This document shows, piece after piece, positions 3,070-48,239 of a stretch of DNA of 48,239 nucleotides. The notes beneath the pieces were generated by a model that did no database searches, was not told the DNA's origin, and saw only the letters and a program-made list of their open reading frames with translations. The stretch covers positions 1 to 48,239 of the forward strand of contig JAUVVY010000033.1 of assembly GCA_030604405.1 (NCBI GenBank), given 5' to 3'. The translations under genes were made by a program, and so were the position numbers. Source of the DNA: a bacterium (GTDB taxonomy: Bacteria > Armatimonadota > Zipacnadia > Zipacnadales > UBA11051). Position 1 is the stretch's first letter. Each line of letters starts with the position of its first letter.

Positions 3070-3498
3070 GACTGCTAGCGACCTCAGCGGGTGCCGTGCC
3101 GAAAGACAACGGCTGTCGGGCTGGAAAGCCCGACCCACGCGAGTATATTAGTGAAGCCCGACCCACGCGAGACTTGGGCTGGCCTTCGGCAGGCTCCCGT
3201 CTGCGCCGAGCCTTTGGCCTGCGGCAAGGCTATGGCGGAGAGGATAGCGGGCAAGCCGAAAGACAACGGCTGTCGGGCTAGAAACTGTAGTTATGCAGAT
3301 TGTGCTAACGGCTGGGCCGGATTCTCGGCGGAAGCTGCGCTTCCGCCTCGTATGCGGCCCCTCCGAAAGGCAACGTCTAAACCTTTGAGCGCGTAGGTCG
3401 GGCTTTCCAGCCCGACGCCGTTACGGGCGAGCCAGCAGCCAGGCTAGAAAGCCTGGCCCACCCGATAATATGAAGGAAGCCCGAGCGACGCGAGTGTA
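3070..3498. repeat. Repeat-filled ispG-rseP spacer
   Basis: This 429-bp spacer contains no gene and is made almost entirely of repeats. A 25-bp sequence (starting gccgaaagacaacgg) occurs identically at 3098-3122 and 3255-3279. The motif agcccgacccacgcgag occurs near 3127 and 3154, with a degenerate copy near 3480. The palindrome gtcgggctttccagcccgac sits near 3397-3416, and a variant (ccaggctagaaagcctgg) near 3440-3457. A single MITE-like terminus (aaactgtagttatgcagatt) is at 3282-3301, followed by a ggcccctccgaaaggcaacg module that also occurs in the larger copies elsewhere. The stretch interrupts an otherwise tight operon. Confidence 0.85.
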
Positions 3499-20022: not shown

Positions 20023-20053
20023 TTTATCCGGTAAGCCTCCACAAAGTGACGGA

Positions 20054-21217
20054 TTATAGGTAGTTGATAGGATTGACGTGTCTGCCATTAACACGGACTT
20101 CGAAGTGCAGGTGGTTGCCGGTTGACAGCCCGGTGGTCCCGCAGCGACCGATCATCTGGCCGCGGCTGACGGTCTGGCCCCTGCACACACGCATACTGCC
20201 CGACTGCAGGTGGCCATAGAGTGTGGACATGCCGCTGCCGTGATCTATAATCACGCAGAACCCGTAACCTCTGCGCCACCCGGCGGAGATGACGCGACCT
20301 GCGGCTGCGGCTTTGATTGGCGTACCTCCGGCTCGTGCGATGTCAATTCCGGTGTGCATCTTCCTGCGGTGCAGTATCGGGTGCATCCGCATTCCATAGG
20401 GGGAGCTGAGGCGGCCCGTCATCGGCCAGGCGAATGTCCCTGCCCACTTGCCATGATACGCTCCGGCTGTTCCCGTGCCGCTGGCCAGCCTGGCCAGCAT
20501 TTCCCCAATCGCCCTGGACTCAGCCTCCCATTGCGCGAGCTCTCTTTCGTAGGTGGCCCGGTCGGTGGTGGCCTTGTGCAGCAACTGTTGAGCGACGTCC
20601 TTCTTTCTCGCGACCTCGTTGCGCTGTTTTCTCACCTTCTGTCGCAAGGTTACCTGTTCTTTTTCTTTAGCCCTCAATTGCCCCCGTTGCTTTTCGCGGC
20701 GCTCCTGGTAGTCAATCATGGCTTGTAGCAGTCGCGTGTCCCCGGCTGCGATACGGGCATTGAAGTCGGCGCGGTTGGCAAAATCATTAAAATCAGTCGC
20801 GTTGAGCAGCACCTCGACATAGGTGGGTATGCCGAGCTTGTAGGTGACCAACATGCGCTGCTGCACTTCATCTTTGTGACGGTTGAAGGTGGCTTCAGTG
20901 TTGGCCAATTCCTGCTTGACTCTGCGAATAGTCGTGCGCGTTTTTTCAAGCTGCCACTCAGCGGCCTTCAGGCGTCTTTCTGCCTCCGCAAGGTCCCGCT
21001 GCGCCTCGATAAGCTCGTTGCGGGACGTAGCCTGCGCGGCCTTGGCAGACTTCAGTTTCCTTCTGGCGTCGGCCTTCTGCCGCTCAATGCGGTTGAAGCT
21101 GCGGCGCAGTTGGGACCGGCTCTGTGCATCGGCCTGCTCCGTAGTCGCAAAGATACTCAGAGCCACTACGAGGCCCGCTATAATCCAAAAAGTCCGCAAG
21201 CCGGTTCTGTTGTCCAT
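20054..21217 (-). CDS. M23 family peptidoglycan endopeptidase with coiled coil (EnvC-like)
   Basis: An exported murein hydrolase of 387 residues. A signal peptide (FWIIAGLVVALSIFATTEQADAQ, cut after ADAQ) is followed by about 200 residues of heptad-rich coiled coil and a C-terminal LytM domain. The zinc ligands look complete: HTGID, then HLHFE, and DHGSGMSTLYGHL supplies the other catalytic His. E. coli EnvC has a degenerate LytM domain and only activates amidases, so this protein is probably an active peptidase. It starts 15 bp after ftsX (GGGAG before the ATG), which fits the known role of the FtsEX ABC complex in controlling coiled-coil hydrolases. Confidence 0.94.
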   Translation of the reverse strand: MDNRTGLRTFWIIAGLVVALSIFATTEQADAQSRSQLRRSFNRIERQKADARRKLKSAKAAQATSRNELIEAQRDLAEAERRLKAAEWQLEKTRTTIRRVKQELANTEATFNRHKDEVQQRMLVTYKLGIPTYVEVLLNATDFNDFANRADFNARIAAGDTRLLQAMIDYQERREKQRGQLRAKEKEQVTLRQKVRKQRNEVARKKDVAQQLLHKATTDRATYERELAQWEAESRAIGEMLARLASGTGTAGAYHGKWAGTFAWPMTGRLSSPYGMRMHPILHRRKMHTGIDIARAGGTPIKAAAAGRVISAGWRRGYGFCVIIDHGSGMSTLYGHLQSGSMRVCRGQTVSRGQMIGRCGTTGLSTGNHLHFEVRVNGRHVNPINYL

Positions 21218-21232
21218 GCAAAGCTCCCGTGT

Positions 21233-22108
21233 TCAGGCCTCGGAGAGATAGCGATTTGCGCTAATGAACGCGCCGGCTGTTCCGAAAAGCGCCCCAGCCA
21301 GAATAAGCCCCAGTGCAAATGCTGTCAAGAACTGTGCCGAATACACGATCTTTATGAACTGGAGGCTCTCGGCCAGGTAAGAATGCAGGTACGCGTAGCC
21401 GATGGTCAGCGCAATAGCGGCCAATATGCCTCCGACGATGCCCTGAAACGCCCCTTCGAATACCAATGGGGCCCTGATAAACCAGTTGGTTGCCCCGACA
21501 AGCTGCATGATGCGAATTTCGCGGCGCCGGGCGTAGATGGTCAGCCGAATTGTGGTACTGACAATCAGCATTGTGGCCGCAACCAGCAGCAGCCCGACCA
21601 CCACGCCGCTGACCTTGATGCCGTGAGACAGCAACAGGATCTTGTCGAATACCGACCTGCTGTACAATACCTCATCGACACCGGGCAGTTGCTCGGCGAA
21701 TTCCGCTACGGCCGCCATATCGTCGGGGTCCGCAACTTTCACCCGGATGATGTCCGACAACGGGTTGCCAGCTATCTTGAGGGTCTCGGGATCAACGCCC
21801 ATCATTTCGGCCCATTCATCCCGAGCCTGCTTCTTGCTGACAAACTCAGTCTCTTTGACGCGCAAGTCGCCGTAGAGTTTAGCCTCGATATCCCCGGCGT
21901 CAGCGTCGTCTTGCAGCCAGACGCTTATGGAGGCGCTTTTCGCCTGCAAACTGGCCATGTAGTCCAGGTTGATCGCGCCCACTACAAAGGCGCCCAGTAT
22001 GGCGACCGAGACCGTCATATTGCCGATGGCAGCAAGGGTGATCAGCAGGTTACGCCGGATCGCCGTCCAGGTCTCCAGGAGGATGAACTCCAGCCCGCTA
22101 CGTTCCAT
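21233..22108 (-). CDS. ftsX: Cell division ABC-type membrane protein FtsX
   Basis: Membrane subunit of the FtsEX complex, which transmits FtsE ATP hydrolysis to a periplasmic hydrolase. The 291-residue product has one N-terminal helix (LLITLAAIGNMTVSVAILGA), an extracellular domain of about 130 residues (LQAKSASISVWLQDD to SRSVFDK), and three C-terminal helices with RRREIRIMQLVGAT between them. The open frame extends further upstream in a frame overlapping ftsE. The ATG at 22108 (MERSGLEF) is the real start and overlaps the ftsE end by 11 bp, which suggests translational coupling. Confidence 0.95.
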   Translation of the reverse strand: MERSGLEFILLETWTAIRRNLLITLAAIGNMTVSVAILGAFVVGAINLDYMASLQAKSASISVWLQDDADAGDIEAKLYGDLRVKETEFVSKKQARDEWAEMMGVDPETLKIAGNPLSDIIRVKVADPDDMAAVAEFAEQLPGVDEVLYSRSVFDKILLLSHGIKVSGVVVGLLLVAATMLIVSTTIRLTIYARRREIRIMQLVGATNWFIRAPLVFEGAFQGIVGGILAAIALTIGYAYLHSYLAESLQFIKIVYSAQFLTAFALGLILAGALFGTAGAFISANRYLSEA

Positions 22109-22784
22109 CGTAGCTGCCCCCCTGCTTGGCGTCCCTGACGACGGTGCCCTGGACGAGGTTGACCACGCGCTTGCGCATGCGGTCAACGATATACTTATCA
22201 TGAGTGCCGACAACAACGGTGGTGTCGCGTTCCGCGATATTGGCCAGCAGTTGGACGATGTCCCACGACACGTCGGGGTCCACGTTGCCGGTCGGCTCAT
22301 CTGCCAGCAGCACTGGTGGCGCATTGACCAGCGCACGGGCAATCGAAACCCGTTGCTGCTCGCCACCCGAAAGCTGATGCGGAAAGGCGTCGCTCTTGTC
22401 GGCAAGGCCCACAAGCTCCAGGCTTATCGGAACCTTGTGGTGCTTCTCCTTGCGACCGGTGCCCAGCACGTCGAGCGCGAATCCCACATTCTCCCACACG
22501 GTCTTGTCCGGCAGGAGCCGAAAGTCCTGGAACACCACTCCAACCTGGCGGCGCAGATAGGGCACCATCCGCCTCGGCAGGGCCGCCACATCCTGCCCGG
22601 CTACAATCACTCGGCCCTCAGTGGGCACGAACTCGCGGTAGATCAGCGCCAACAGCGAGCTCTTGCCACTACCCGATGCGCCAACGAGGAAGGAAAACTC
22701 ACCACGTTCTATGTGCAGATCGATGGAGCGCAAGGCCCGGGTTCCGTCAGGATAAACCAGGCCGACGCCTTCCATGTGTATCAT
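22098..22784 (-). CDS. ftsE: Cell division ATP-binding protein FtsE
   Basis: Cytoplasmic ATPase of the FtsEX complex. All ABC motifs are present: Walker A GASGSGKSS, Q-loop in VGVVFQDFRLLPD, signature LSGGEQQRVS, Walker B VLLADEPTGNVD and H-loop VVVGTHD. The start at 22784 (MIHMEGVGLVYPDGT) aligns with normal FtsE and gives 228 residues. The upstream open frame to 22886 would run through the promoter. It is the first gene of ftsE-ftsX-M23-ctpA and probably of the whole run through the LysM/G5 and isoprenoid genes. Confidence 0.96.
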   Translation of the reverse strand: MIHMEGVGLVYPDGTRALRSIDLHIERGEFSFLVGASGSGKSSLLALIYREFVPTEGRVIVAGQDVAALPRRMVPYLRRQVGVVFQDFRLLPDKTVWENVGFALDVLGTGRKEKHHKVPISLELVGLADKSDAFPHQLSGGEQQRVSIARALVNAPPVLLADEPTGNVDPDVSWDIVQLLANIAERDTTVVVGTHDKYIVDRMRKRVVNLVQGTVVRDAKQGGSYDGT

Positions 22785-22848
22785 ATCTCGTCGCCATCTT
22801 CTGTTGTGAACTATAACTGGGTATATTTCTGCGAGATTTGACCTATCT

Positions 22849-22877
22849 AGTATAGCAAAAACCACCGCCAGAGGCAA
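22849..22877 (-). promoter_or_regulatory. Sigma-70 type promoter for ftsEX operon
   Basis: On the minus strand TTGCCT (22872-22877) and TATACT (22849-22854) are 17 bp apart, with the -10 matching five of six consensus bases. The start of transcription would be near 22842, about 58 bases before the ftsE ATG. Confidence 0.55.
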
Positions 22878-22976
22878 CCGCTGCACGCGCCAGAAGCAAT
22901 TTCGGCCGACCAGGCAGGTAATCGCACCAAAGGCCCGAAAGTAAGCGCAATTGTATAAGCAATTTGGTGCTCACGG

Positions 22977-22985
22977 TGCTATAAT
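22977..22985 (+). promoter_or_regulatory. Extended -10 promoter for the M48 protease gene
   Basis: TGC followed by a perfect TATAAT (22980-22985) forms an extended -10 element, with no good -35. Transcription would begin around 22992. This excludes the earlier ATGs at 22951 and 22984 as starts and supports the lipoprotein start at 23026. Confidence 0.6.
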
Positions 22986-23025
22986 GGGACACCAGACGGA
23001 GCCGAAAGGGGGTCACACCGGGCCT

Positions 23026-23781
23026 ATGAAGCCAACGATATTGCTTACGCGTGCGTGGCTGTTGCTGTTGGTAGCGTTGGTTGTGCTCACTGTTGCCGGC
23101 TGCAAGCGTCCGCAGCGGCTGTTGAGCACGGATCAGGAGATAGAGCTTGGACGAGAGGCCGGCGACGACTTTGAGCGCGAGCACGGCCGCGATCGCGACC
23201 AGCGCCGCAACGAGATGCTGCAGCGCATTGAGGGGCGAATCGAGAATGTCGCCGAGCCCCCGGACTATCCCTATGACTTCCGGGTGCTTGCTGACGACGC
23301 GGTCAATGCCGTGGCGTTTCCGGGCGGCCGCATTTACTTCTACCGTGGGCTATTCGAGGCGCTTGCCTACGACGAGGATCAACTGGCGTGGGTTGGCGGC
23401 CATGAGGCAGTCCACATATCGCGCCAGCACGCATGTCGCCGCATCGAAAGGTCGTTGGGCTATGAGCTGGTAATCCAACTGATCTTCGGCAAGGACACCG
23501 CAGGCGAGATAGCCGGTCTGGTGGCCGGCCTGGTGCTCCAGGACTACGGGCGCGATAACGAGCTCGAGGCCGACCGTATGGGACTGGAATACACCCATGC
23601 GGCGGGCTATGACCCGACGGCGGCGCTGGCGGTGCTTGAGAAGTTCAGCGAGATTCAGGGCGAGGACCCTAGCGATGTTGAGTTGCTGTTCATGACGCAT
23701 CCCGGAAATACCACCCGCAGTGATGCGGTCAAGAGCTACCTGCGGCAGCGTGGCTGGAGTGGCAGCTACTTCCGGCCCTGA
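23026..23781 (+). CDS. M48 family metalloprotease, lipoprotein
   Basis: An exported zinc protease of about 251 residues, related to BepA/LoiP. The N-terminus is a lipoprotein signal (LLLLVALVVLTVAGC), with Cys26 as the lipid-modified residue. The zinc motif HEAVH is at about 126-130, and the third ligand is in NELEADRMG. The region before it (VNAVAFPGGRIYFYRGL) is the conserved M48 edge strand. The likely role is quality control of envelope proteins, by analogy. The start is fixed by the extended -10 promoter just upstream and by the signal peptide. It is divergent from ftsE and followed after 75 bp by a glycosyltransferase. Confidence 0.92.
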   Translation: MKPTILLTRAWLLLLVALVVLTVAGCKRPQRLLSTDQEIELGREAGDDFEREHGRDRDQRRNEMLQRIEGRIENVAEPPDYPYDFRVLADDAVNAVAFPGGRIYFYRGLFEALAYDEDQLAWVGGHEAVHISRQHACRRIERSLGYELVIQLIFGKDTAGEIAGLVAGLVLQDYGRDNELEADRMGLEYTHAAGYDPTAALAVLEKFSEIQGEDPSDVELLFMTHPGNTTRSDAVKSYLRQRGWSGSYFRP

Positions 23782-23856
23782 ATGCCGGCGCTGCTTGAGC
23801 CTTGCTGCGGTGCTTGCGTGGCGCCTATCCGCATTTATCTGAGGCTGCGGTGACTT

Positions 23857-25137
23857 ATGTCTGAGCCGATACAGCTAATGCACATATTCCGTTCTGGAGC
23901 AGGCTTCGTCCGCAGCCAGGCGCTGGCGCTAATCTCGCGTCTGTCCCGGCGACGATTTCATACCACCGTCGCCGGCGAACTCGACGCGCGTGCCAAACGC
24001 CGACTGGCCATGAGCAGAGCGCGCTGGGTGCAGATGGCCTTGCCCACTGACATCCACCCGCTGCGGCAGATCGGCACAGCCAGGCGGCTGGCGCGGCTGC
24101 TGTCCACTCAAGACACGGCCCTGGTGCACGCCCACGGCTTTCAGGCGGCCTTTACAGCGCTGCTTGCAAGGCGCCACTTGGCCAACGGGCCGGTCGTTAT
24201 CTGCAGCCCCTATGGTCTGCCCGGCCTTGTCCAGAGGTCAGGGCTTGCACGCCAATCGGTGATCACGGCGGCTCGCTGGGTGATGCGTGAGGCCGATGTT
24301 ATGGTCGTACAATCTGACCATGAAGCCTTGCAGCTTGGTAGCCTGGCCCCCGGCAAGCTGGACAACCTGCACGTGGTGCCGGAGGGTGTTGTGCTGGAGG
24401 ACCTGCGGGAGGATTTCGAGCCCGGTGCCAAGCGCAGGCTGGTCGGTTTGGACCCGATGGCCGCGATCGTGGGCGTGATGGCTCCGCCGGAGGGCACGGG
24501 TGTCACAGGCTTCCTGGAGGCTGCGCGTTCAGTGATGGCGCTGAGGCCCAATGTCGAGTTTGTCTCAATCGGCCACGGGGCAAAGACGGAGCACTTCGTG
24601 GAAGTCGCGCATCAGTTGGGCTTGAGCGGATGCATGGTGTTTCTCGGCGAACGCGCCGATATCGTGGAGATAATTGCCTCGCTCAACGCCCTGGTCATTC
24701 CAGCGGACTATCCCGGGTCCCGTCGCTACGCCGTCCATGCCCTGGCCAACAACATTCCGCTGATAGTCGCTGAGCACGGCGGGCTGCCGGATGTAGTCAG
24801 TGAAATCAAGCACGCGCGCGCCGTCCCGCAAGATGATGTGGCCGGCCTCGAGAAGGCGATGGCCGAATTCCTCGACACTGTCCCCGTCCGCGACAGTGAC
24901 GAGCTGTTTGATGACGAGCTGGGCTTCAGCCACCGCGAACTGCTGGTATCCGGTACGGTCATAGACTTTGATACTGTCGGCCTTGACCCCGTCCCGGGCG
25001 GCGAGCTCAGCGAAGAACAAGATGCCATACAACGGACTATCGAGCGCTTCAGCATGCAGCAGATGGCCAGGCACTTCACACACCTTTACACGCAAGTAGC
25101 TACCAAGCAAGCCACCGTCGCGGAAAGCACTGGTTGA
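23857..25137 (+). CDS. Glycosyltransferase family 4-like protein
   Basis: A 426-residue GT-B-type enzyme, likely transferring a sugar onto a lipid or polysaccharide. The N-terminal half has the pattern of a GT4 acceptor domain (MHIFRSGAGFVRSQALALISRLSRR, split by loops, and LVHAHGFQAAF). The C-terminal half has VVPEGVVLEDL, the usual hinge strand, and PADYPGSRRYAVHALANNIP where GT4 enzymes carry their sugar-nucleotide loop. The loop's classic E-x7-E is not obvious, so donor and acceptor are unclear. It is followed immediately by the FGGY kinase (2 bp gap), implying translational coupling. Confidence 0.8.
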   Translation: MSEPIQLMHIFRSGAGFVRSQALALISRLSRRRFHTTVAGELDARAKRRLAMSRARWVQMALPTDIHPLRQIGTARRLARLLSTQDTALVHAHGFQAAFTALLARRHLANGPVVICSPYGLPGLVQRSGLARQSVITAARWVMREADVMVVQSDHEALQLGSLAPGKLDNLHVVPEGVVLEDLREDFEPGAKRRLVGLDPMAAIVGVMAPPEGTGVTGFLEAARSVMALRPNVEFVSIGHGAKTEHFVEVAHQLGLSGCMVFLGERADIVEIIASLNALVIPADYPGSRRYAVHALANNIPLIVAEHGGLPDVVSEIKHARAVPQDDVAGLEKAMAEFLDTVPVRDSDELFDDELGFSHRELLVSGTVIDFDTVGLDPVPGGELSEEQDAIQRTIERFSMQQMARHFTHLYTQVATKQATVAESTG

Positions 25138-25139
25138 GG

Positions 25140-26642
25140 ATGGCATACTTCCTGGGCATAGATGTTGGCACGACGATAGTCAAGGCACTGGTCGCTGATG
25201 AGGCGGGGCGGGTCGTCTGCGAGGAGACCGTAGAATACGGCTACAGCCAGCCGCGGCCGGGCTGGGCCGAGCAGGACGCCGAGGACTGGTGGCGCTGCCT
25301 CAAGCAGGTTACGCAGGCCGTTGCCAGCCGGCTTGCGCAGCCGCCCGTGGCCCTGGCGCTCTCGACCCACGGCGATACGATGGTGCCGGTGGATGGCGAT
25401 AATCGGCCGCTGCTGCCGGCGCGACTGTGGTTCGATGGGCGTACCACGGCGCAGGTCGCGCGGATGCTGCAGCAGGCGCCCCAGGAGCAATGGCGCCAGA
25501 CAACGGGCAGTGGCCTTGGGGTTTATGCCGCCGCCGCAAGCCTGGCGTGGTGGGCCGATGAGCACCCGCAGATATTCGCCCAGGCTGCTCGCTTCTGCCT
25601 GGTGCAGGATTTTTTGATGGCGCGGCTGACGGGTCGCTACATGGCGGATGCGCCCAATGCCTCGCGCACGCTCATTTTCGACATTCACACCCGCGACTGG
25701 TGTGACCCCCTGATGGCGATTGTCGGAGTAGAACGTGACCGGCTGCCCGCCGCTGCCGAGTCAGGCACCCCGGTCGGTAACCTAGCACCTGAGGCCGCTG
25801 CGGAACTCAACTTGCCCGAGAAGACGTTGGTTGTGCTCGGGGCGCACGACCAGACCGCGGCAGCCATCGGCTGCGGAGCCGTCAAGCCGGGCACTGTCAT
25901 GCTCTCTACCGGCACGGCCTGGGTGGTTTTGGGCGCGGCCGATGAATTGCACATTGATGCGCACGGGCGGCTGCAGACTTACTGCCATGCCATGCCTGGA
26001 GGCATTGCTATTCTGGGTGCTTATGCCGGCGGCTCGCTGCTGCGCTGGGCCCGCGACAGTTTTTCGCAGCTTGCCGACGCCGATACCGCCGATTATGACA
26101 CCGTGGTGGCTGAGGCGCAGCAAGCGGAGCAGGCAGGGCGCAGCCCGCTTGTGTTCCTGCCGCATTTCTACGGCTCCGGCCCGCCGCTGCGGTGCACGTA
26201 TGCGCTTGGGGCCATAGCCGGGCTGCAACTGCAGCATACCCGCGCTGATATATACCTCTCGCTGCTCAGAGGCGTCGCCACCCAGACCGCCTCGGTGCTG
26301 GCGACCATGGCGGAGTTGGGCTATGAAATTGCCGAGGTGCGCATGATCGGAGGCGGCGCGCAGAGTGATTTCTGGGCGCAGCTTGTCGCCGATGCGCACG
26401 GCGGGCCGCTCAAGTTGCCGGTGGTATCCGAGGCGGCGGCCTACGGTGCGGCGATGCTGGCCGCCATCGGCTCAGAGCACATCAACTCAGCGGAGCAAGT
26501 GGCGGAGATGGTCGCCATACGCAGGGAGATTGCACCGCGGCCCCAAGCCTCCACCATCGCGTCGGAGTGGCACGCGAAGTATCTTGACGCACTTGACGAA
26601 ACGTGGCAAGCTCTTGCGGCCTATCGCACCAAATACCAATAG
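25140..26642 (+). CDS. FGGY-family carbohydrate kinase (xylulokinase-like)
   Basis: Phosphorylates a sugar or polyol with ATP. The ASKHA phosphate-1 motif GIDVGTTIVKALVADEAG is at the N-terminus, the sugar-site sequence GAHDQTAAAIGCGAV is central, and the adenosine motif MIGGGAQSDFWAQL is in the C-terminal domain. The length of about 500 residues and overall order match xylulokinase and its unassigned relatives, but the substrate is not certain. I take the ATG at 25140, two bases after the preceding stop. A TTG at 25134 would overlap the glycosyltransferase. No sugar isomerase or aldolase follows in the cluster. Confidence 0.9.
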   Translation: MAYFLGIDVGTTIVKALVADEAGRVVCEETVEYGYSQPRPGWAEQDAEDWWRCLKQVTQAVASRLAQPPVALALSTHGDTMVPVDGDNRPLLPARLWFDGRTTAQVARMLQQAPQEQWRQTTGSGLGVYAAAASLAWWADEHPQIFAQAARFCLVQDFLMARLTGRYMADAPNASRTLIFDIHTRDWCDPLMAIVGVERDRLPAAAESGTPVGNLAPEAAAELNLPEKTLVVLGAHDQTAAAIGCGAVKPGTVMLSTGTAWVVLGAADELHIDAHGRLQTYCHAMPGGIAILGAYAGGSLLRWARDSFSQLADADTADYDTVVAEAQQAEQAGRSPLVFLPHFYGSGPPLRCTYALGAIAGLQLQHTRADIYLSLLRGVATQTASVLATMAELGYEIAEVRMIGGGAQSDFWAQLVADAHGGPLKLPVVSEAAAYGAAMLAAIGSEHINSAEQVAEMVAIRREIAPRPQASTIASEWHAKYLDALDETWQALAAYRTKYQ

Positions 26643-27077
26643 TAGGCCGAGCTAACATACATTTCCTCAACCTCCGCGTAGGTCGGGCCTTTCTAAAGTA
26701 GTTATGCAAATCTTGGGCAACCGAAGCTGTAGGGGGACGGTGTGGCGTCGTTAGTCGTAATGGAGGGGCCTGTCGCCCCTCGACGTTGCTCGGGGCCGTG
26801 AGCCTGTCGAACGGCAGGCTGTTTCGCAGAGCGAAACAGGCAAGGCTGGCCCAGTTGTTGTCGTTGGTCGTTTGGGTGTGCAGAGTTCGTCAGGATAGCG
26901 TTTTGCGTGGGCCGGGCTCCCAGCGCCCGATACGGCAGGGCGCTGCTCGACGCGGCCCCTCCAACGGCAACGCAATCTGCAATAGGACTGGCTTGCAGGG
27001 CTCTGAACTCATTCTGGAACTAAAAATCTGCATAACTACAGTTTCCAGCCCGACATCGTTGGCACCATGGAGACAAC
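26643..27077. other. FGGY to DUF1638-hydantoinase spacer
   Basis: A 435-bp gene-free gap. It holds half of a GTAGGTCGGGC palindrome at about 26677-26690, the full MITE-like element A (26697-27044), and the other half of the palindrome (ccagcccgac) at 27045-27054. A short leader then carries the ribosome site GGAG before the GTG at 27078. The element appears to have been inserted within the older palindrome. Confidence 0.75.
26697..27044 (+). mobile_element. MITE-like element, copy A
   Basis: About 348 bp bounded by imperfect inverted ends, agtagttatgcaaatct on the left and aatctgcataactacagttt on the right. The interior contains gacggtgtggcgtcgttagt, a stem-loop around gcctgtcgaacggcaggc, and cgtttgggtgtgcagag. 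It has no coding capacity that I trust. Its full length aligns with the reverse complement of copy B at 29926-30238. The interior modules recur at the window's right end. It is a non-autonomous element by appearance; no matching transposase is in view. Confidence 0.75.
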
Positions 27078-29879
27078 GTGATACGCATCAAAGTAGTGGC
27101 CTGCGGGGTGTTCGAGCCGGAACTTACCGAGCTCGCACAGCAGGTCGAGAACGAGATAGATCTGCATTTCCTCGACGCCGGTCTGCACGAGCAGCCTGAC
27201 AGTTTGCGTTCGCAGTTGCAGCAGGCCATTGATGAGGCCGAGGGCCGGGGCTATGACGCAATTGTGGCCGGTTACGGTCTGTGCGGCCGTGGCACGTCTG
27301 GGATTGTTGCGCGCAGTATTCCGGTGGTGCTGCTGCGGGTGCATGACTGCATTACCCTGTTTCTGGGCTCCCGTGCCGCGTACATGGAGCAATTCAGCAA
27401 ACACCCCGGCACCTTTTACATCACCCCGGGCTGGTATGAGAAGCAAGCGAGGGCCGGCAAGGACGCTCTAACAGACAAGCAAGCGGCGCAGGAGGTCGAA
27501 GACGACCCGCGCTTTGCCGAGTGGGCTGAGCGGTTCGGCGCAGATGCAGCGGCGCATATACTGCATTTCCAGGATAGCTGGAAGCGCAACTACACCCGCG
27601 CTGCCTACATTGACACGGTGCGCAATGCCCCGGAGGATTGTGAGCTATACGCCCGCCGACTCGCCGAGAGCATGGGCTGGGAGTATGAGCGGCTGCCGGG
27701 TGATTGCGACATGCTGCGGCGCGCACTGCAGGGCGACTGGGACGCCGAGGCTGTTTTAGTGCTGCAGCCGGGCCAGAGGTCGGCGATAACCGGCGACGAC
27801 CGCCTGCTGACTACGATTGACCCGGGCGAGCCGATAGCACACCGCAAGGCCCCTGACGGCGAGCGCGAGACCGAGGTTGTGATCTCGCAGCCGGCCGGCA
27901 TTGTGGCTCTGGGCATAGACGCCGGCGGCACCTATACGGACGCCGTGGTGTATGATTTTTCCGCCGATAGAGTGATCGCAAAAGCCAAGGCGCTGACGAC
28001 GAGGCACGATCTGACTATCGGCATACAGGCCGCGCTGGATCAGCTTGAGCCCTTGCCGGCTGAGCAGGTGGCAATGGTTGCGCTCTCGACCACGCTGGCG
28101 ACCAATTCGATAGTGGAGGACAAGGGTGGCCGACCGGGTGTGCTGATTATGGCCCCGTTCGATCCACCCCCTGGGGCGATCAAGTGGCAGTCGGTGCGGA
28201 AGGTCCGAGGCCAGATGACCATCAGCGGCCGAGAACTGCAGCGGCCCGATCCCGCCGAGGTCAGCCAGGCAGTGCGTGAGTTGCTGGCCGAGGGCGTGGA
28301 TGCCTTTGCAGTCAGCGGCTACGCCAGCGTCCGTAACCCCGACCACGAAAACACGGTGCAGCAACTGATTGAACGGGAGTGCGATCTGCCGGTGATCTGC
28401 GGCCATCATCTTTCGACGAAGCTGGACTACACCACGCGGGCCAATACTGCAATCCTCAACGGCCGGCTGCTGGCGGTCATCAACCAGCTAATTGTAGCCG
28501 TAAAGGCGGCGCTGCGCCGGCGCAATATCCAAGCCCCACTGATGATCGTAAAGGGCGATGGGTCGCTCATCAATGAGGCGATCGCACTGCAGAGGCCGGT
28601 GGAAACGGTGCTTTCCGGCCCGGCGGCAAGTATCGTGGGCGCGAAATTCCTCACGGGCGTCAAAGACGCGCTCGTTTTCGACATGGGCGGCACCACTACC
28701 GACGCAGCGACAATCAGTGGCGGTCTGCCGAAAATCCATCCGCAGGGGGCCAGCATCAACGGCTGGCGGACTGCGGTCGAGGCGGCCGATATCGTTACTA
28801 TCGGTCTCGGCGGCGATAGCCACCTCAATTTCAACGCCGAGCGCAGACTGCTGGTCGGTCCGCGCCGCGTCGTACCGCTGTGTTACTTAGCGGCATACCA
28901 CGAGCCGGCTCGGGCGCAGTTGATGGCGCTCGACGCGTTGTCCATAGTGGACCCGACCAGCGCCCAGGCCCTCGACTTTTTCGTGTTCGTGACTACTCCA
29001 TCAGATCGGACAACGCTTGCGGAGCGAGACGCAGCGGCTCTGGACGCTTTGCGCGACGGCCCGCTGTCCACAGGGGCCCTGGCGCGACGTTTGGGCCTGC
29101 AATCGCCGCAACTGCTGCGCACGGGAGAGCTGGAAAGCGCCGGCTACATACAGCGCAGCGCCTTGACGCCCACCGACATATTGCACGTGACCGGCGAATT
29201 CGTTGCCTGGGATGTGGAAGCGGCTGCCCACGGCCTGCGGATGTTCGCCGAGCTTTATGGCGAAGATGAACGGGCCGTGATTGATGCGGTGCATGAGCAG
29301 ATAGTGCGGCGGCTGTGCATGCAGGTGCTGACCTGTGCCTACGGCCTGCCGCCGTACGACATGACTGGCCCTGACTGTCCGTTGTGTACGCGGCTGCTTG
29401 ACGCCGCCCTATCACAAAGCGACGGCAAGCCCATCCATGTAAGCCTCAAGTATCTGCAGCACCTGGTCGCCATAGGCGCGCCGGTCAAGCCGTTTTTCCC
29501 GGAAGTAGCAAAGCGCCTTGGGGCGAATTTGATCATTCCCGATCACGCTGAGGTCGCCAATGCCATCGGAGCGGCCGCCTCGGAGGTAGTGATGCACGAG
29601 ACGGTCACAGTGCGGCCCGGAGAACTCGGCAATTTCGTAGTCCACAGTCGCCAGCAGCGCAACGAGTACCTCAAGTTAGAAGACGCCATCGCGGCCGCTG
29701 AAACTCTCGCCGAGCAGTTGGCGGCACAGAGAGCAGTCGCCGCCGGCGCTGCTAGCCCTGATACGCGGACTGAGGTCAACAAACGTGAGGTGCGTATAGC
29801 CGACGGCACCGTGCAGCTTATCGAAGTGACGGTCGAGGCGATTGCTGCAGGCAGGCCAACGCTCGCACCGAGCACTTAG
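27078..29879 (+). CDS. DUF1638-like domain fused to hydantoinase/oxoprolinase A-like ATPase
   Basis: A 933-residue two-part protein. Residues 1 to about 240 resemble DUF1638, with GYGLCGRGTSG at 65-75 and VHDCITLFLGS at 88-98. From about 275 the sequence is a hydantoinase A-type ASKHA protein: GIDAGGTYTD at 279-288, ALSTTLATNSIVEDKGG, LSGPAASIVGAK, and the second phosphate motif FDMGGTTTDAA. Around 650-720 lies a short winged-helix-like stretch (LSTGALARRLGLQSPQLLR). As I recall, DUF1638 proteins are often encoded beside corrinoid methyltransferases, and such ATPases can reactivate corrinoids or act on lactams, but neither role can be proved here. It starts at GTG with GGAG. It stands alone between two inverted MITE-like copies. 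Confidence 0.82.
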   Translation: MIRIKVVACGVFEPELTELAQQVENEIDLHFLDAGLHEQPDSLRSQLQQAIDEAEGRGYDAIVAGYGLCGRGTSGIVARSIPVVLLRVHDCITLFLGSRAAYMEQFSKHPGTFYITPGWYEKQARAGKDALTDKQAAQEVEDDPRFAEWAERFGADAAAHILHFQDSWKRNYTRAAYIDTVRNAPEDCELYARRLAESMGWEYERLPGDCDMLRRALQGDWDAEAVLVLQPGQRSAITGDDRLLTTIDPGEPIAHRKAPDGERETEVVISQPAGIVALGIDAGGTYTDAVVYDFSADRVIAKAKALTTRHDLTIGIQAALDQLEPLPAEQVAMVALSTTLATNSIVEDKGGRPGVLIMAPFDPPPGAIKWQSVRKVRGQMTISGRELQRPDPAEVSQAVRELLAEGVDAFAVSGYASVRNPDHENTVQQLIERECDLPVICGHHLSTKLDYTTRANTAILNGRLLAVINQLIVAVKAALRRRNIQAPLMIVKGDGSLINEAIALQRPVETVLSGPAASIVGAKFLTGVKDALVFDMGGTTTDAATISGGLPKIHPQGASINGWRTAVEAADIVTIGLGGDSHLNFNAERRLLVGPRRVVPLCYLAAYHEPARAQLMALDALSIVDPTSAQALDFFVFVTTPSDRTTLAERDAAALDALRDGPLSTGALARRLGLQSPQLLRTGELESAGYIQRSALTPTDILHVTGEFVAWDVEAAAHGLRMFAELYGEDERAVIDAVHEQIVRRLCMQVLTCAYGLPPYDMTGPDCPLCTRLLDAALSQSDGKPIHVSLKYLQHLVAIGAPVKPFFPEVAKRLGANLIIPDHAEVANAIGAAASEVVMHETVTVRPGELGNFVVHSRQQRNEYLKLEDAIAAAETLAEQLAAQRAVAAGAASPDTRTEVNKREVRIADGTVQLIEVTVEAIAAGRPTLAPST

Positions 29880-30310
29880 GGGACTGGTAAGCTGCTGGCT
29901 GGCCCGTAAGAGCGTCGGGCTGGAGAAACTGTAGTTATGCAGATTTCTAATCGTAAGAGGAGTTTAGAGCTTTGCAAGGGTCTCCGATTACACGTTGTGC
30001 TGCTGTTGGAAGGGCCGCGTCGAGCAGCGTACGGTTGTTCCGTGCGCTGGGAGGCCGGCCCACGTAGCACGCTATGGTGGCAAGGCCTCTGGACCCAAAC
30101 GGCCAACGACAACGACTGGGCCAGCCTTGCAGGCCTCGACAAGCTCGGCCTGCTGCGACAGGCCCTTCCATTATGACTAACGACGCCACACCGTCACCGT
30201 ATAGCTTGACTTGCCCAGAATTTGCATAACTACTGTTTGCAGCCTGACAATGCCTTTTCTATCCCGTACTTCGGGCTTCCGGCCCGACACCGTATAGGGC
30301 TTTCAACCGC
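29880..30310. other. Spacer between the fusion gene and mutS
   Basis: A 431-bp gene-free gap with half-palindrome gtcgggctgg at 29914-29923, MITE-like element B, then cagcctgac at 30240-30248 as the other half. A further copy of the palindrome-like word (cgggcttccggcccgac) is near 30268-30284, before the mutS start. No clear mutS promoter was seen outside the repeats. Confidence 0.7.
29926..30238 (-). mobile_element. MITE-like element, copy B (inverted relative to A)
   Basis: About 313 bp with ends aaactgtagttatgcagattt (left) and aatttgcataactactgttt (right). Reverse-complemented, it follows copy A block by block: tagttatgcaaat, gggcaa, gacggtgtggcgtcgttagtc, aaggctggcccag, tgtcgttgg, cgtttgggt, gctgctcgacgcggcc and tctgcataactacagttt. 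A variable middle hairpin differs between copies. The divergence, judged by eye, is large enough that the copies are old or under weak constraint. Confidence 0.75.
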
Positions 30311-32986
30311 ATGTTGAATGACGCAGAGCTGACACCGATGTACCGACAATGGGCCCAGGCCAAGCGGGACTATCCCGATGTCCTGATACTGTTCCGCATG
30401 GGTGATTTTTATGAGATGTTCGGCGAGGATGCCGAAATCTGCGCGCGCGTGCTCGAACTCACGCTCACCAGCCGTGGCATGGGGAGCAAAGGCCGCATCC
30501 CGATGTGTGGCGTACCGCATCACGCAATTGGCCGCTATCTGAAGACCCTGGTCGAAAAGGGCTACCGCGCGGCGATATGCGAACAGGTCGAAGACCCCAA
30601 GCAAGCCAAGGGACTGGTGCGGCGGCAGGTCACCCGCGTCGTCACACCCGGCACGCTGCTCGAGGACGAACTCATCGGCGACAGCGGCTACAACTTCCTG
30701 GTCTCAATTGAGAAGGCCGGCCACGCCTATGGTGTGGCGACTGTTGACGCCTCGACCGGCGACTTTCTGGTAACTCAAATTGATCCGCGCACCGCTAGCC
30801 AGCCGCCCGTTGAGTCCACGCTTCCGGAGACGACGACAACGGGGCTTGAGCCGACGCTGGCCGCCGCGCTTGACGAGCTGGTGCGCCTGCAGCCCGCTGA
30901 GGTGCTGATCAGTCCCGAGCTGGCTGAGGATGAAACAGCACACTCCGCCCTGCGCGATGCCGTCGGCGTGCCGATTAACGTCGCGGCGGCCGACAGCAGC
31001 TTCTCATCTCCCGCTCAGCAGTTGCAGGAGCATTTTGGCGTCACCACGCTGCACGGCTTTGGATGCCAGGATAAGCCGGCGGCGGTGGCAGCGGCGGCTC
31101 AGGCTTTGCGCTATCTCCACAGCACGCAACTGGAGGCCATGCCACGCCTGACCGGCCTGACCACATATTCCACCAGCGATTTCATGGTCATAGACGCCGC
31201 GACCCGGCGCAACCTGGAGCTGGTGCACTCGCTGCGCGACGGCGGCAAGCGCGGAACGTTGCTGGAGTTGCTGGACAATACGGAGACCCCGATGGGCGGC
31301 AGGGCGCTGCGCTCTGCCCTGCTGCAGCCGCTTCTCAGCCTGGACGAGATCAATCTGCGCCTCGATGGCGTGGAGAATCTTGCCGCCGATACCATTGTGG
31401 CCGACCAGCTTCGCCAGCGACTGCATCAGATCTACGACCTGGAGCGCCTCGCCAGCCGCGCCACTGCAGGGACCGCCAACGGCAAGGACCTCCGCGCCCT
31501 GTGCATTTCGCTGCAGCAGCTTCCCCAGATTCGCCAGGAGCTCGATAGCGCTACCGCCCAAGTGCTCAAGAACATACAGGGCCGCATTGACGCGCTCGAG
31601 GATCTCACTGAACTGCTGGAACGTGCCATCGTTGAGGACCCGCCGGTTCAGATAACCGAAGGCAACATTATTCGCGAAGGCTACAATGCCGAGCTCGATG
31701 AATTACGCGGCGGCGCTGCCAGTGGCCGCGACTGGATCGCCCAGCTACAGGACCGCGAACGCGCTCGCACTGGCATCAAATCGCTGAAGGTTGGCTTCAA
31801 CAAGGTCTTCGGCTACTACATCGAGGTCAGCAAGCCCAACCTCGACCTGGTGCCCCAGGACTATGACCGCAAGCAGACGCTGGTCAACGCAGAGCGCTTC
31901 ATCACTCCGCAACTCAAGGAGCAGGAGGCCAGGATACTGGGCGCCGACGAGCGCAGCCAGGAGTTGGAGTACGAGCTTTTCGTCGAGCTGCGACAGCAGG
32001 TGGCGCAGGTCAGCGACCGGATTATGTCCACCGCGCGTGCTATAGCGGAACTCGACATGCTGATATCGCTGGCTAGCGCCGCGGTGCAGTACAACTACAC
32101 CAAACCGCAGGTCAACGCCTCTGCTGAATTAGACATCATTGACGGCCGCCACCCGGTCGTGGAACAGGCCCTGCTCAGCGAATTGTTTGTGCCCAATGAC
32201 GCGCATCTCGACTGCGAAAGCGACCAGTTGCTGATAGTGACGGGCCCCAACATGGCCGGCAAGTCCACGTACTTGCGGCAGGTCGCGCTGATCGCGTTGA
32301 TGGCGCAGATGGGCTCTTTCGTGCCGGCCAGGTCGGCCACGGTGGGGCTGTTGGACCGCATATTCACGCGCGTGGGGGCCAGTGACGACCTGGCGAGCGG
32401 GCATTCCACGTTCATGATCGAGATGACCGAGGCGGCCAATATTCTGCAGAACGCTACCGACAGAAGTCTCATTATCCTCGATGAGATCGGCCGCGGCACC
32501 TCGACTTACGATGGCATGTCCCTGGCATGGGCGGTGGCGGAATATCTCGTAAAGAACATCGGGGCCAAGACGCTGTTCGCCACCCATTACCATCATTTGA
32601 ACGAGCTTGCTGAGCTACTTGAGGCTGTCAAGAATCTGCGGGTTACGGTAAAGGAAGAGGGCGATCAGATAATCTTTCTGCGCAAGATCGTCCCTGGCGG
32701 CACGGATCGTTCATACGGCATTCAGGTGGCGCGGCTGGCGGGGCTGCCTCATGCCGTGGTCGAGCGGGCCAAGGAAGTGCTTCGTACTCTCGAACAGCAG
32801 GACATCGCGGCCGGCCCGAGCGCCGAAGCGGTCAGCAAGGTGGCCGACACGGTGCAGTTGCGGTTGTTCGAGGGTGCGCGCGATCCGGTGGTGGAGAAGC
32901 TTAAGGAGTTGGACTTGGACACGATGTCGCCGCTGGAGGCGCTGACGAAGCTCAAGCAATTGCAGGACGAGGCCGAGCAGGACTAA
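30311..32986 (+). CDS. mutS: DNA mismatch repair protein MutS
   Basis: Binds DNA mismatches and starts repair. The 891-residue protein has the N-terminal mismatch-binding motif FRMGDFYEMF (Phe-x-Glu intact), a connector, the lever/clamp helices, and a C-terminal ABC-type ATPase. The latter has Walker A TGPNMAGKSTYLRQ, the signature region SGHSTFMIEM and Walker B SLIILDEIGRGTSTYDG. Both the mismatch-reading and ATPase elements are complete, so it is MutS1 rather than MutS2. No mutL follows; the next gene, mreB, is convergent and only 25 bp away. The start lacks a strong ribosome site, but MLNDAELTPMYRQW is a normal MutS beginning. Confidence 0.97.
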   Translation: MLNDAELTPMYRQWAQAKRDYPDVLILFRMGDFYEMFGEDAEICARVLELTLTSRGMGSKGRIPMCGVPHHAIGRYLKTLVEKGYRAAICEQVEDPKQAKGLVRRQVTRVVTPGTLLEDELIGDSGYNFLVSIEKAGHAYGVATVDASTGDFLVTQIDPRTASQPPVESTLPETTTTGLEPTLAAALDELVRLQPAEVLISPELAEDETAHSALRDAVGVPINVAAADSSFSSPAQQLQEHFGVTTLHGFGCQDKPAAVAAAAQALRYLHSTQLEAMPRLTGLTTYSTSDFMVIDAATRRNLELVHSLRDGGKRGTLLELLDNTETPMGGRALRSALLQPLLSLDEINLRLDGVENLAADTIVADQLRQRLHQIYDLERLASRATAGTANGKDLRALCISLQQLPQIRQELDSATAQVLKNIQGRIDALEDLTELLERAIVEDPPVQITEGNIIREGYNAELDELRGGAASGRDWIAQLQDRERARTGIKSLKVGFNKVFGYYIEVSKPNLDLVPQDYDRKQTLVNAERFITPQLKEQEARILGADERSQELEYELFVELRQQVAQVSDRIMSTARAIAELDMLISLASAAVQYNYTKPQVNASAELDIIDGRHPVVEQALLSELFVPNDAHLDCESDQLLIVTGPNMAGKSTYLRQVALIALMAQMGSFVPARSATVGLLDRIFTRVGASDDLASGHSTFMIEMTEAANILQNATDRSLIILDEIGRGTSTYDGMSLAWAVAEYLVKNIGAKTLFATHYHHLNELAELLEAVKNLRVTVKEEGDQIIFLRKIVPGGTDRSYGIQVARLAGLPHAVVERAKEVLRTLEQQDIAAGPSAEAVSKVADTVQLRLFEGARDPVVEKLKELDLDTMSPLEALTKLKQLQDEAEQD

Positions 32987-33011
32987 GCCTTGCCATCGTG
33001 CCCGCCGGTCT

Positions 33012-34046
33012 TCAGAGCAACCCCCGCCGCGGCGCGAACTCGCCGGTGGTTTTCTCGATAATGTCCAACTGATCCAGGACCTTGCCGGTGCCCATCGCCA
33101 CCGAGGAAATCGGGTCTTCGGGCACGTGTACTGGAATGCCGGTCTCCAGATACAGCAGGCGGTCCAGGCCGTTTAGCAATGCCAGGCCGCCGGTCAGGGT
33201 GATGCCGCGTTCGATGATATCGGCCGCCAATTCCGGCGGGGTACGTTCTAGTTGGCCCTTGACGGCCTCGATGATCTGGTTGATGTTTTCAGCCATCGCC
33301 TCACGCACCTCGTGAGAGCTTACCGCTACGGTCTTCGGCAGGCCGGAGACGATGTCGAGGCCGCGCACCTCCATCTCCTGTTCCTCTTCCGGCTCAAACG
33401 CCGAGCCAATATCGTGCTTGATCGTCTCAGCCGTCCGCTCACCGATATCCAGGTTATACACATGCCGGATGTGCCGGGTGATGGCCTCATCCAGCTTCGT
33501 GCCTCCCACACGCAGCGATGCGCTGACCACTATGCCGCCCAGCGAAATGACGGCGATGTCAGTGGTGCCGCCGCCGACGTCCACGACCATATTGCCACCG
33601 GCGTTAGCGATCGGCAGACCGACACCGATAGCTGCGGCCATTGGCTCTTCGATAGGGATGACTTTGCGGGCTCCGGCCGCCCGCGTGGCCTCCAGGGCGG
33701 CTCGTTCCTCCACGGCTGTAGCACCTGAGGGGATGCAGATTACAACGAGGGGCTTGAGGAATCGCGCACGACCCCCGCACGCCTTTCGAATCAGGTAGCG
33801 CAGCATTTCGCGCGTGACGGAATAGTCGGCTATTACCCCGTCGCGCAGCGGCCTGAGCGCGACGATACTGCCCGGCGTGCGGCCCAGCATTTCCCGCGCC
33901 TCATGACCGACAGCGAGCACCCGCTTGGTCTGCTCGCTGATAGCCACGACAGAAGGCTCGCGGACCACGATACCTCGGCCGCGAGCGAATACGATGATAG
34001 TGGCGGTGCCCAGGTCAATTCCTATACGCTCACCGATGCCAAGCAT
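33012..34046 (-). CDS. mreB: Rod shape-determining protein MreB
   Basis: An actin-like filament protein that guides lateral cell-wall synthesis. The 344-residue product has the actin-fold motifs IGIDLGTATIIVFARGRG, a phosphate-2 motif VVDVGGGTTDIAVISLGG and GLALLNGLDRLLY near the C-terminus, and reads as a typical MreB of normal length. It implies a rod-like cell or at least an elongasome. Its start overlaps the murA stop by 17 bp and it closes the atp-murA-mreB transcript. No mreC or mreD follows; mutS converges on it. Confidence 0.96.
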   Translation of the reverse strand: MLGIGERIGIDLGTATIIVFARGRGIVVREPSVVAISEQTKRVLAVGHEAREMLGRTPGSIVALRPLRDGVIADYSVTREMLRYLIRKACGGRARFLKPLVVICIPSGATAVEERAALEATRAAGARKVIPIEEPMAAAIGVGLPIANAGGNMVVDVGGGTTDIAVISLGGIVVSASLRVGGTKLDEAITRHIRHVYNLDIGERTAETIKHDIGSAFEPEEEQEMEVRGLDIVSGLPKTVAVSSHEVREAMAENINQIIEAVKGQLERTPPELAADIIERGITLTGGLALLNGLDRLLYLETGIPVHVPEDPISSVAMGTGKVLDQLDIIEKTTGEFAPRRGLL

Positions 34047-35328
34047 TCCGCGCCTTGTCGTCCTCTGCGGTTCGCGTGCTGGTTATCGCGGCACCGAGGT
34101 TCTGCAGTTTGCCCTCGAGATCTTCATACCCGCGAGCCAAAAACTCGGCCCCGCTAATCTCGGTGTAGCCGTCTGCAGCCAGCCCGGCCACCACCAGGGC
34201 CGATCCGGCGCGGATGTCGGTGGCCTCGACCGGGGCCCCGTACAGTTTCGGCACACCTCTGATGATCGCCACGCTGTCCTTCAACTGCATGTCAGCACCC
34301 ATCCGCTTCAGTTCATCTATGTAGTTGAACCGGCCCTCAAAGATGGTTTCCTGTAGCACCGTGGTGCCGACGGCGACCGCGCCGAGAACGCCAACATTAG
34401 GCTGCAGATCGGTGGGGAAACCGGGATAAGGAGCGGTGGTCACTTCGAACGCCTGCGGGCGCGTGTCGGAGATTGCGCGCACAAAATCCGGCCCGCTTTC
34501 CAGCCTTAAGCCCACCCTTTGCAGCAGATTAAGCACCGCGCCCATGTGCCGTGGCTCTACCGCTTGCACTGTCACGTCACCGTGCGCGGCACCGCATGCC
34601 ATCAGGAAAGTGCCGGCTTCCATGCGGTCAGGAATAGAGCGGAAGCGGCAGCCGTGCAGCTTCTTGACGCCTTTGATGACAACAATGTCGGTGCCTGCCC
34701 CGCGGATGTCAGCGCCGGCCTGTGTCAGAAAGCGCTGGCAGCAGGTCACTTCTGGCTCGCGCGAGGCGTTTTCAACTACTGTCACGCCATCTGCAAGCAC
34801 TGCCGCCAGCATTACGTTGATGGTCGCGCCGACGCTGCGATAGCGGCTGTCCATATACATGTGGCTACCTGTCAGTTTCTCGGCACGTGCCTGCATCACA
34901 CCGTGGCGCTCCTCTACGACTGCGCCAAGCGCCCTGAAGCCACTGAGATGGAAGTCAACCGGCCGCGAGCCGATGACACAACCGCCCGGCAGCGGAACCT
35001 CCGCCTCACCGAAGCGTCCCAAGAGCGCGCCGGCCACATAAAAAGAGCCCCGCATCTTTCGAACCAGATCGTACGGGGCGCTTACTGAGGTTATGTGCGT
35101 TGCGTCAATACTGAGTACTGAGCGGCCAATGAATTCACACTTGGCACCCAGCGAACGCAGCATGTCAATCATTGCGTTGATGTCGTCAATGCGGGGAACG
35201 TTCTCGATGATGCTCTGGCCCTCGATGAGTAGCGAGGCCGCCAGAAGCGGCAGGGTTCCGTTCTTGGAGCCGCTGATTACCACATCACCAAGCAGGGGAT
35301 TGCCGCCGTGTATCCTGATGGTTGCCAC
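34030..35328 (-). CDS. murA: UDP-N-acetylglucosamine 1-carboxyvinyltransferase
   Basis: First step of peptidoglycan precursor synthesis: adds enolpyruvate from PEP to UDP-GlcNAc. The catalytic cysteine is in PLPGGCVIGSRPVDFH, so fosfomycin sensitivity would be expected. KNGTLPLLAASLL at the N-terminus carries the PEP-binding Lys-Asn. The open frame runs to 35418, but GTG at 35328 (start of VATIRIHGG) has GGGAGGGAG five bases upstream and gives 432 residues, the usual size. The longer version would add about 30 unrelated residues. It lies 82 bp after atpC, linking cell-wall synthesis to the ATP synthase operon. Confidence 0.95.
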   Translation of the reverse strand: MATIRIHGGNPLLGDVVISGSKNGTLPLLAASLLIEGQSIIENVPRIDDINAMIDMLRSLGAKCEFIGRSVLSIDATHITSVSAPYDLVRKMRGSFYVAGALLGRFGEAEVPLPGGCVIGSRPVDFHLSGFRALGAVVEERHGVMQARAEKLTGSHMYMDSRYRSVGATINVMLAAVLADGVTVVENASREPEVTCCQRFLTQAGADIRGAGTDIVVIKGVKKLHGCRFRSIPDRMEAGTFLMACGAAHGDVTVQAVEPRHMGAVLNLLQRVGLRLESGPDFVRAISDTRPQAFEVTTAPYPGFPTDLQPNVGVLGAVAVGTTVLQETIFEGRFNYIDELKRMGADMQLKDSVAIIRGVPKLYGAPVEATDIRAGSALVVAGLAADGYTEISGAEFLARGYEDLEGKLQNLGAAITSTRTAEDDKARNAWHR

Positions 35329-35410
35329 GCTAACTCCCTCCCAGTGTCCGTCAATGGCTGCATAGAGGCTGCGAGTTGTTGCTGCGATGCCGGCGGGCCG
35401 GTACTCGCCC

Positions 35411-35842
35411 TTACCCAAGCATACCAGCTTTTCCGGCGGCGTGCAAGCGGTTCAGCGCCCTGGCCAGAGCCAGCCTTGCGCGGTCCGTATCAATTGCCTC
35501 TCGCTCAGGACCGCGGTAAGCGGCCTCAAGACGCTGTTGGGCACGCCGCATCGCCTGTTGCACTCGCTCTATGTCAATCTTGCTGGCCATTTCTGCGGCA
35601 TCCGCCAGCAGTGTCACGCGGTTGTCGAAAACCTCCATCACCCCGCCGGCTACGGCACTATACTCGTCTCCGCCACTGGTGTGCAGAGTCACCACGCCGG
35701 TGGCCAGACTGGTCAACAGCGGAGCGTGTCCTGGCCTGATACCCAGGTAGCCCAGAGCGCCGGGCACAACTACTCCGTCAACGGGACCCTGAAATTCCAC
35801 ACCAAATTGAGTAACTATCTCAACTATCAATTCGCTATTCAT
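35411..35842 (-). CDS. atpC: ATP synthase F1 epsilon subunit
   Basis: A stalk subunit that couples rotation and inhibits ATP hydrolysis. It is 143 residues, with the beta-sandwich N-terminal domain (GPVDGVVVPGALGYLGIRPGH, containing the conserved GxLGxxPGH), followed by DEYSAVAGGVMEV and a helical hairpin C-terminus (RVQQAMRRAQQRLEAAY). The C-terminal helices are complete, so regulatory inhibition is possible. It follows atpD by 32 bp and is the last atp gene. Confidence 0.96.
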   Translation of the reverse strand: MNSELIVEIVTQFGVEFQGPVDGVVVPGALGYLGIRPGHAPLLTSLATGVVTLHTSGGDEYSAVAGGVMEVFDNRVTLLADAAEMASKIDIERVQQAMRRAQQRLEAAYRGPEREAIDTDRARLALARALNRLHAAGKAGMLG

Positions 35843-35874
35843 AGCAACTGTCGGCCCACTTAGCCGCTTCCCTG

Positions 35875-37251
<1,377 letters not shown>

Positions 37252-40488: not shown

Positions 40489-40749
40489 ACCGTACCAGCT
40501 CGTCTTCCGGCATTTCCTGGGCGATGCGGTTCACATCTATTTCCCTTCGCGTAGGTCGGGCTTCCAGCCCAACATGCCGCCTCTTCGTCGCGCTACCGCG
40601 CCAGCTCGTCCTCCGGCATTTCGTGGGCGATGCGGTTTACATCTATTTCCGTTCGCGTAGGTCGGGCTTCCAGCCCGACATGGCGCCTCTTCGTCGCGCT
40701 ACCGCGCTAGCTCGTCCTCCGGCATTTCGTGGGCGATGCGGTTTACATC
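40489..40749. repeat. 106-bp tandem repeat carrying copies of the atpF 3' end
   Basis: Two full copies (40489-40594 and 40595-40700) follow a partial third copy that is the true end of atpF (40701-40749). On the minus strand each ends in the same coding sequence plus stop. The gene and copy 2 give DVNRIAHEMPEDELAR, and copy 1 gives DVNRIAQEMPEDELVR. The stops are TAG, TAG and TAA. The unit's remaining bases include the dispersed gtaggtcgggcttccagcccgac palindrome. The spacer is thus a duplicated gene end plus a repeat element, multiplied in tandem. Confidence 0.92.
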
Positions 40750-48049: not shown

Positions 48050-48239
48050 CTGGCGTAGGTCGGGCTTTCCCGTAGGGGCTGAGCTTGTCGAAGCCCAGCC
48101 CGACGCTGTTGCCTTTCGGAGGGGCCGCGTCGAACGTCGGACGTTGTTTGTCCGACGTGAGCCCGGCCCGCGCAGACCGCTATTCTGGCGTGCTCTGCAC
48201 ACCGCAACGGCCAACGACAACGGCAGGGCCAGGCTTGCA
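48050..48239. repeat. Mosaic repeat at the right edge of the window
   Basis: The half-palindrome gtaggtcgggctttcc near 48056-48071 is followed by a hairpin (ctgagcttgtcgaagcccag) and then cggaggggccgcgtcgaac, agcccggcccgcgcaga, ctctgcacaccgc and ccaacgacaacg. These blocks match MITE-like copy A read backwards. The copy runs off the end of the window, so its total length is unknown. Confidence 0.7.

Follow-up and report, generated by a model that had tools for sequence, protein, structure and literature searches.

Two diverged MITE copies in split REP-like palindromes on either side of a DUF1638-hydantoinase fusion gene in an Armatimonadota genome

REPs are established targets of insertion sequences (IS), with insertion documented in the IS3, IS110, IS4, IS256 and IS5 families (PMC1525189). 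IS1397, ISKpn1, IS621, ISPsy8 and ISRm22 all enter REPs that also stand unoccupied in many copies, and hybrid copies with unmatched flanks have been reported for ISRm22 (PMC1525189); both features recur in the genome described here. Similarly the GTAG-23 repeats of Thermomicrobium roseum insert in small palindromes that are rich in GC and have loops of 3-4 nt, and hundreds of these palindromes are unoccupied (PMC3733652), however in that species the inserted repeat is of the REP class, whereas here the inserted element is a MITE of about 300 bp with IS-like ends and the palindrome is most likely the REP. Bacterial MITEs, including Correia/NEMIS, RUP, ERIC and others (PMC3733652, PMC10969869), share with the present family their short and non-coding nature, inverted ends in common with an IS, dispersed copies and target duplications. 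The class itself is therefore not new; in comparison with these known MITEs the target here is very regular, being the loop of a REP palindrome. Compared with the IS already known to target REPs, the present case brings together an IS701-like element in Armatimonadota and a large MITE family on one target. Our literature search turned up no paper that treats MITEs and insertion sequences in Armatimonadota, nor one joining IS701, MITEs and palindromic targets.

The window, that is the whole stretch of 48,239 nucleotides that was analysed, is contig C47 of a 4.37-Mb assembly with 96 contigs (the own genome, labelled G000). It contains a DUF1638-hydantoinase A fusion gene framed by two copies, A and B, of one element. 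In our view A and B, members of a non-autonomous MITE family (about 220-470 bp), very probably entered REPs independently of each other, with the fusion gene as a bystander.

Copies A and B

The features around the fusion gene are as follows.
25134..26642, forward strand: sugar-kinase-like gene upstream of the fusion gene, named from the appearance of its sequence only
26678..26695, forward strand: left half of the REP split by A, with a GTAG head, a GTCGGGC arm and one extra C
26690-26695, forward strand: left target duplication of A, TTTCTA
26696..27041, forward strand: MITE copy A, 346 bp, inverted ends GTAGTTATGCAAAT and ATCTGCATAACTAC
27042..27054, forward strand: right half of the REP split by A, with the TTTCCA duplication (27042-27047) and a GCCCGAC arm
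27078..29879, forward strand: DUF1638-hydantoinase A fusion gene, 933 aa
29914..29928, forward strand: left half of the REP split by B, with a GTCGGGC arm followed by TGGAGAAA
29929..30235, reverse strand: MITE copy B, 307 bp, in the opposite orientation to A
30236..30248, forward strand: right half by B, with TTTGCA and a GCCTGAC arm
30311..32986, forward strand: mutS, downstream of the fusion gene

The original prediction had described two diverged copies of one element in opposite orientation, each with inverted ends of its own and each inside a split palindrome, and all of this was recovered. Aligned by blastn over the full element A and B are 71.5% identical (E = 7e-51), and a repeat search within the window returned them as inverted arms at 26840-27045/29925-30130 (206 nt, 77% complementary) and 26697-26776/30155-30234 (80 nt, 88% complementary), with a longest exact match of 22 bp. 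The inverted ends of A lie at 26698-26714/27023-27039 (I7) and those of B at 29926-29945/30219-30238 (I3). Boundaries were refined by taking CT..AG as the outermost element bases, with the element start read as CT-GTAGTTATGCA; A begins with AA where CT is usual. The ORF list contains no transposase ORF inside either copy.

Both palindromes are of the GTCGGGC/GCCCGAC type, with A in GTCGGGC-C-TTTCTA[element]TTTCCA-GCCCGAC and B in GTCGGGC-TGGAGAAA[element]TTTGCA-GCCTGAC. A has a near-perfect 6-bp duplication of its own (TTTCTA/TTTCCA). B is without a matching duplication, and as its right flank differs from its left we regard it as decayed or recombined.

The MITE family and its target palindrome

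A and B are ordinary members of a MITE family of about a hundred copies. A search with A by blastn gave 62 matches in its own genome, and the named relatives with a matching repeat are Armatimonadota / Candidatus Zipacnadia MAGs. The end motif GTAGTTATGCARAT occurs five times in the window at up to 2 mismatches, against 0.29 expected, and 137 times genome-wide at up to 1 mismatch, against a single occurrence of the reversed control pattern. Paired ends lie 216-466 bp apart, most commonly near 300, and enclose several internal sequence types; in total the genome has about 112 such elements or IS ends. The family is short and non-coding, with terminal inverted repeats, dispersed copies, target duplications and ends in common with a longer IS, which bears out the earlier description of A and B as MITE-like. 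Further members and empty targets are present in the same window.
3115..3134, no strand: empty target palindrome GTCGGGCTGGAAAGCCCGAC
3285..3300, forward strand: start of another family member, of a different internal type
3397..3416, no strand: empty target palindrome GTCGGGCTTTCCAGCCCGAC, with a GTAG head
40555-40573, no strand: empty target palindrome with one mismatch
40661..40679, no strand: empty target palindrome GTCGGGCTTCCAGCCCGAC, with a GTAG head
48108..48239, reverse strand: partial related element running into the contig end (blastn)

The target is highly constant. A GGGCT arm (up to 1 mismatch) lies no more than 16 nt outside the end at 98 of the 101 distinct ends, and is exact in 82. 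In addition at least 102 intact palindromes stand in the genome, mostly in the form GTCGGGCT-TCC-AGCCCGAC or GTCGGGCT-TTCC-AGCCCGAC, and three intact palindromes in the window have a GTAG head, which REPs typically carry. The only Y1_Tnp (RAYT-like, PF01797) match in the genome is at G000:C2:14144-14413, and its gene (L219:1189-1896) is found about 150-260 bp from two GTGG-headed REPs, both in its 5' region. The palindrome thus combines a GTAG or GTGG head and a hairpin with many intergenic copies and an adjoining RAYT-type gene. Given the heads, the lone Y1_Tnp gene beside two REPs and what is generally known of RAYTs (see also PMC2817692), we regard it most probably as a REP of the RAYT type. 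Some MITEs in turn have a whole REP palindrome inside them (L168:294-617, L165:165-464, L143:6060-6190), so nesting of the two goes both ways.

Direct repeats of 5-6 bp (up to 1 mismatch) flank 23 of 34 paired copies from the own genome and its congeners, in comparison with a mean of 10.2 and a maximum of 17 for shuffled partners. The duplications seen include TTCCA/TGGAA at 5 bp and TTTCTA, TAGAAA, TAACTA, TAGAAT and GCAATA at 6 bp, and in REP targets they correspond to the bases that separate the GGC arm from the GCC arm. A shorter duplication of 3-4 bp, with an element start of ACT, is possible in perfect palindromes, however TAACTA, TAGAAT and GCAATA favour the 6-bp reading. About one third of copies lack matching flanks; such hybrids would be expected from decay or from recombination between copies, the latter as discussed for ISRm22 (PMC1525189). 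In B (29926-30238), L026, L038, L079 and L145 both flanks come from one side of the REP, either GGA twice or TTC twice, and these copies are likely products of recombination between copies.

A probable partner insertion sequence

Many contigs of the assembly break off some 100 bp into a longer, nearly identical element whose ends and REP arms are those of the MITEs. We found 18 left ends of this IS, with the ORF start MANTGLNAATFNAELAKDAADETVF, and 14 right ends, with the ORF end EREKLRALIKIYETTNDIDQVFAAAGCA, all of them at contig ends; loci are given below.
L150-L155, L163, L170-L187: IS left ends
L052, L060, L063, L067-L071, L073, L195-L207: IS right ends

The IS and the MITEs have in common the inverted repeat CTGTAGTTATGCA, with only about 14 terminal bp alike. 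The middle of the IS is unassembled and its transposase is known only from the two ends of its ORF. The copies apparently represent a recent burst of a young IS and, as so many contigs end inside them, explain part of the fragmentation of the assembly.

In a relative (G017) a transposase of 404 residues has a C-terminus that matches the ORF end at 50% identity (E = 4e-4), with just 28 C-terminal residues being comparable. The G017 protein matches PF13546 and is placed in IS701 by NCBIfam NF033540 (186 bits, cut-off 150), its gene is framed by CACTGTAGTCATGCG inverted repeats, and the two elements have a common inverted repeat core, ACTGTAGTYATGC. Duplications in IS701 are almost always exactly 4 bp (PMC2266710) whereas those of the MITEs are 5-6 bp, as in IS1634, and for this reason we name the partner IS701-like and keep it out of IS701 proper. 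A search for a full-length IS in 61 relatives (by end pattern), 291 genomes of the phylum (by C-terminus) and viral contigs returned the G017 relative alone. This relative (L189:1460-2800) stands between the flanks CAGGCTTCA and TGAAATCCTG with no clear duplication, and the flanks may themselves be a palindromic target. In a congener (L143) the two ends enclose an interval of 1.8 kb, which was considered as a full IS and rejected, as it has a glycerate-kinase-like gene between separate MITEs instead.

Judged from these sequences the MITEs are probably mobilised by the young IS. Its transposase (IS4 superfamily, IS701-like) would recognise the MITE inverted repeats in trans and insert MITEs into the loops of REPs, themselves probably spread by the one RAYT-type Y1 transposase of the genome, and each insertion would duplicate the 5-6 bp between the palindrome arms. 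The intergenic REPs up- and downstream of the fusion gene would each have been struck once, at different times. We also entertain, at rather long odds, the idea that the transposase recognises the extruded REP hairpin as a structure, and not by sequence alone, and cuts at both borders of stem and loop, in which case the size of the loop (3 or 4 nt plus the closing pair) sets a duplication of 5 or 6 bp.

An IS110/IS1111-type element is a very improbable mobiliser of the MITEs. After the element end L072 comes the start of an ORF, MTYIAMDVHKTT, which we take to have the look of an IS110-type transposase N-terminus, and members of that family do target REPs as outlined above. Against this the own genome has no PF01548 match, a MITE seems to enclose the L072 ORF, and the matching ends belong to a separate multi-copy IS; moreover IS110 elements are not known to make duplications of 5-6 bp such as those seen here. 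On these grounds the candidate was set aside. At L072:1-198 (G000:C24) the IS110-like ORF, seemingly inside the MITE, is broken off by the contig end.

The fusion gene as a probable bystander

Of the 61 genomes searched 43, the own genome included, have either the fusion gene or a homologue of one half of it; the fusion is widespread in relatives, and DUF1638 also stands alone. A weak winged-helix match lies near residues 641-693 of the fusion protein. The order and strand of the kinase, the fusion gene and mutS are kept in all four members of the genus found to have the gene (G000, G001, G003 and G004), and the fusion gene and mutS are also collinear in three genomes of another family (f6). 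At this locus the end motif is absent from G003, G004 and all more distant loci. In G001, where the protein is 91% identical, the left junction of A is at the same site and the right half of A is rearranged; B is absent together with its REP, so that G001 offers no clean empty site for B. As G001 has A without B at the orthologous locus, and as each copy has its own split target, we conclude that A and B are separate insertion events of different age.

Nothing special has to be invoked for the framing of the gene. About 112 sites spread over 4.37 Mb should by chance give 8.9 pairs of neighbours whose starts are no more than 3.23 kb apart, a count that is approximate, with MITEs and IS ends mixed among the matches listed. 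Other close pairs are indeed seen on contigs C57, C37, C53, C11, C56 and C10, and a MITE pair surrounds a glycerate-kinase-like gene in a congener. A and B stand on either side of the fusion gene by chance.

Three further readings give the elements a role at this locus. It is very unlikely that they are retained as structured RNAs or regulatory cassettes that serve the function of a neighbouring gene. Single-strand folding is somewhat beyond that of shuffled sequences (A z = -2.4, B z = -5.0) and A lies just upstream of the start codon, however inverted ends and internal palindromes suffice for such folding, no above-threshold Rfam match overlaps A or B, copies occur at many unrelated places, and two other congeners have the fusion gene without the elements.

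The original prediction saw in the layout a composite unit able to move the gene, or a recombination switch for its orientation, and neither found support. A composite transposon that is bounded by A and B and moves the 2.8-kb gene as a unit is highly unlikely: two inverted copies of a mobile element do frame one gene, but such a unit would show one target across its outer ends, where instead each copy has its own split REP, and the congener with A lacks B. Nor is the unit seen at different places or missing as a whole, as in relatives without the repeats the gene remains between the kinase and mutS; solitary copies meanwhile stand by many other genes, and these two findings are the ones that the original prediction had set as grounds for dropping its reading. 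Equally remote is an inversion switch with A and B as arms for homologous or site-specific recombination, as despite the inverted layout, and hybrid flanks that point to recombination between copies in this genome, an exact A/B match of 22 bp at most is short for RecA-type recombination, the ORF list has no recombinase gene nearby (20000-37000), and in none of the relatives showing both genes is the fusion gene inverted relative to mutS.

With independent insertion as the preferred reading, there is little reason left to suspect a composite transposon or a switch at the DUF1638-hydantoinase gene. In its place is a three-layer system in a little-studied phylum, made up of RAYT-associated REPs, an apparently young IS in REP loops and a MITE family, older than the IS, that shares its ends and sites. 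IS targeting of REPs is already known, and what is new here is a well-preserved example with regular anatomy. The regular target, together with duplications of 5 versus 6 bp, makes hairpin-guided target choice by a DDE transposase testable; if true, this would mean a structure-guided DDE transposase whose duplication depends on the target, common to an IS and a MITE family on RAYT-made REPs.
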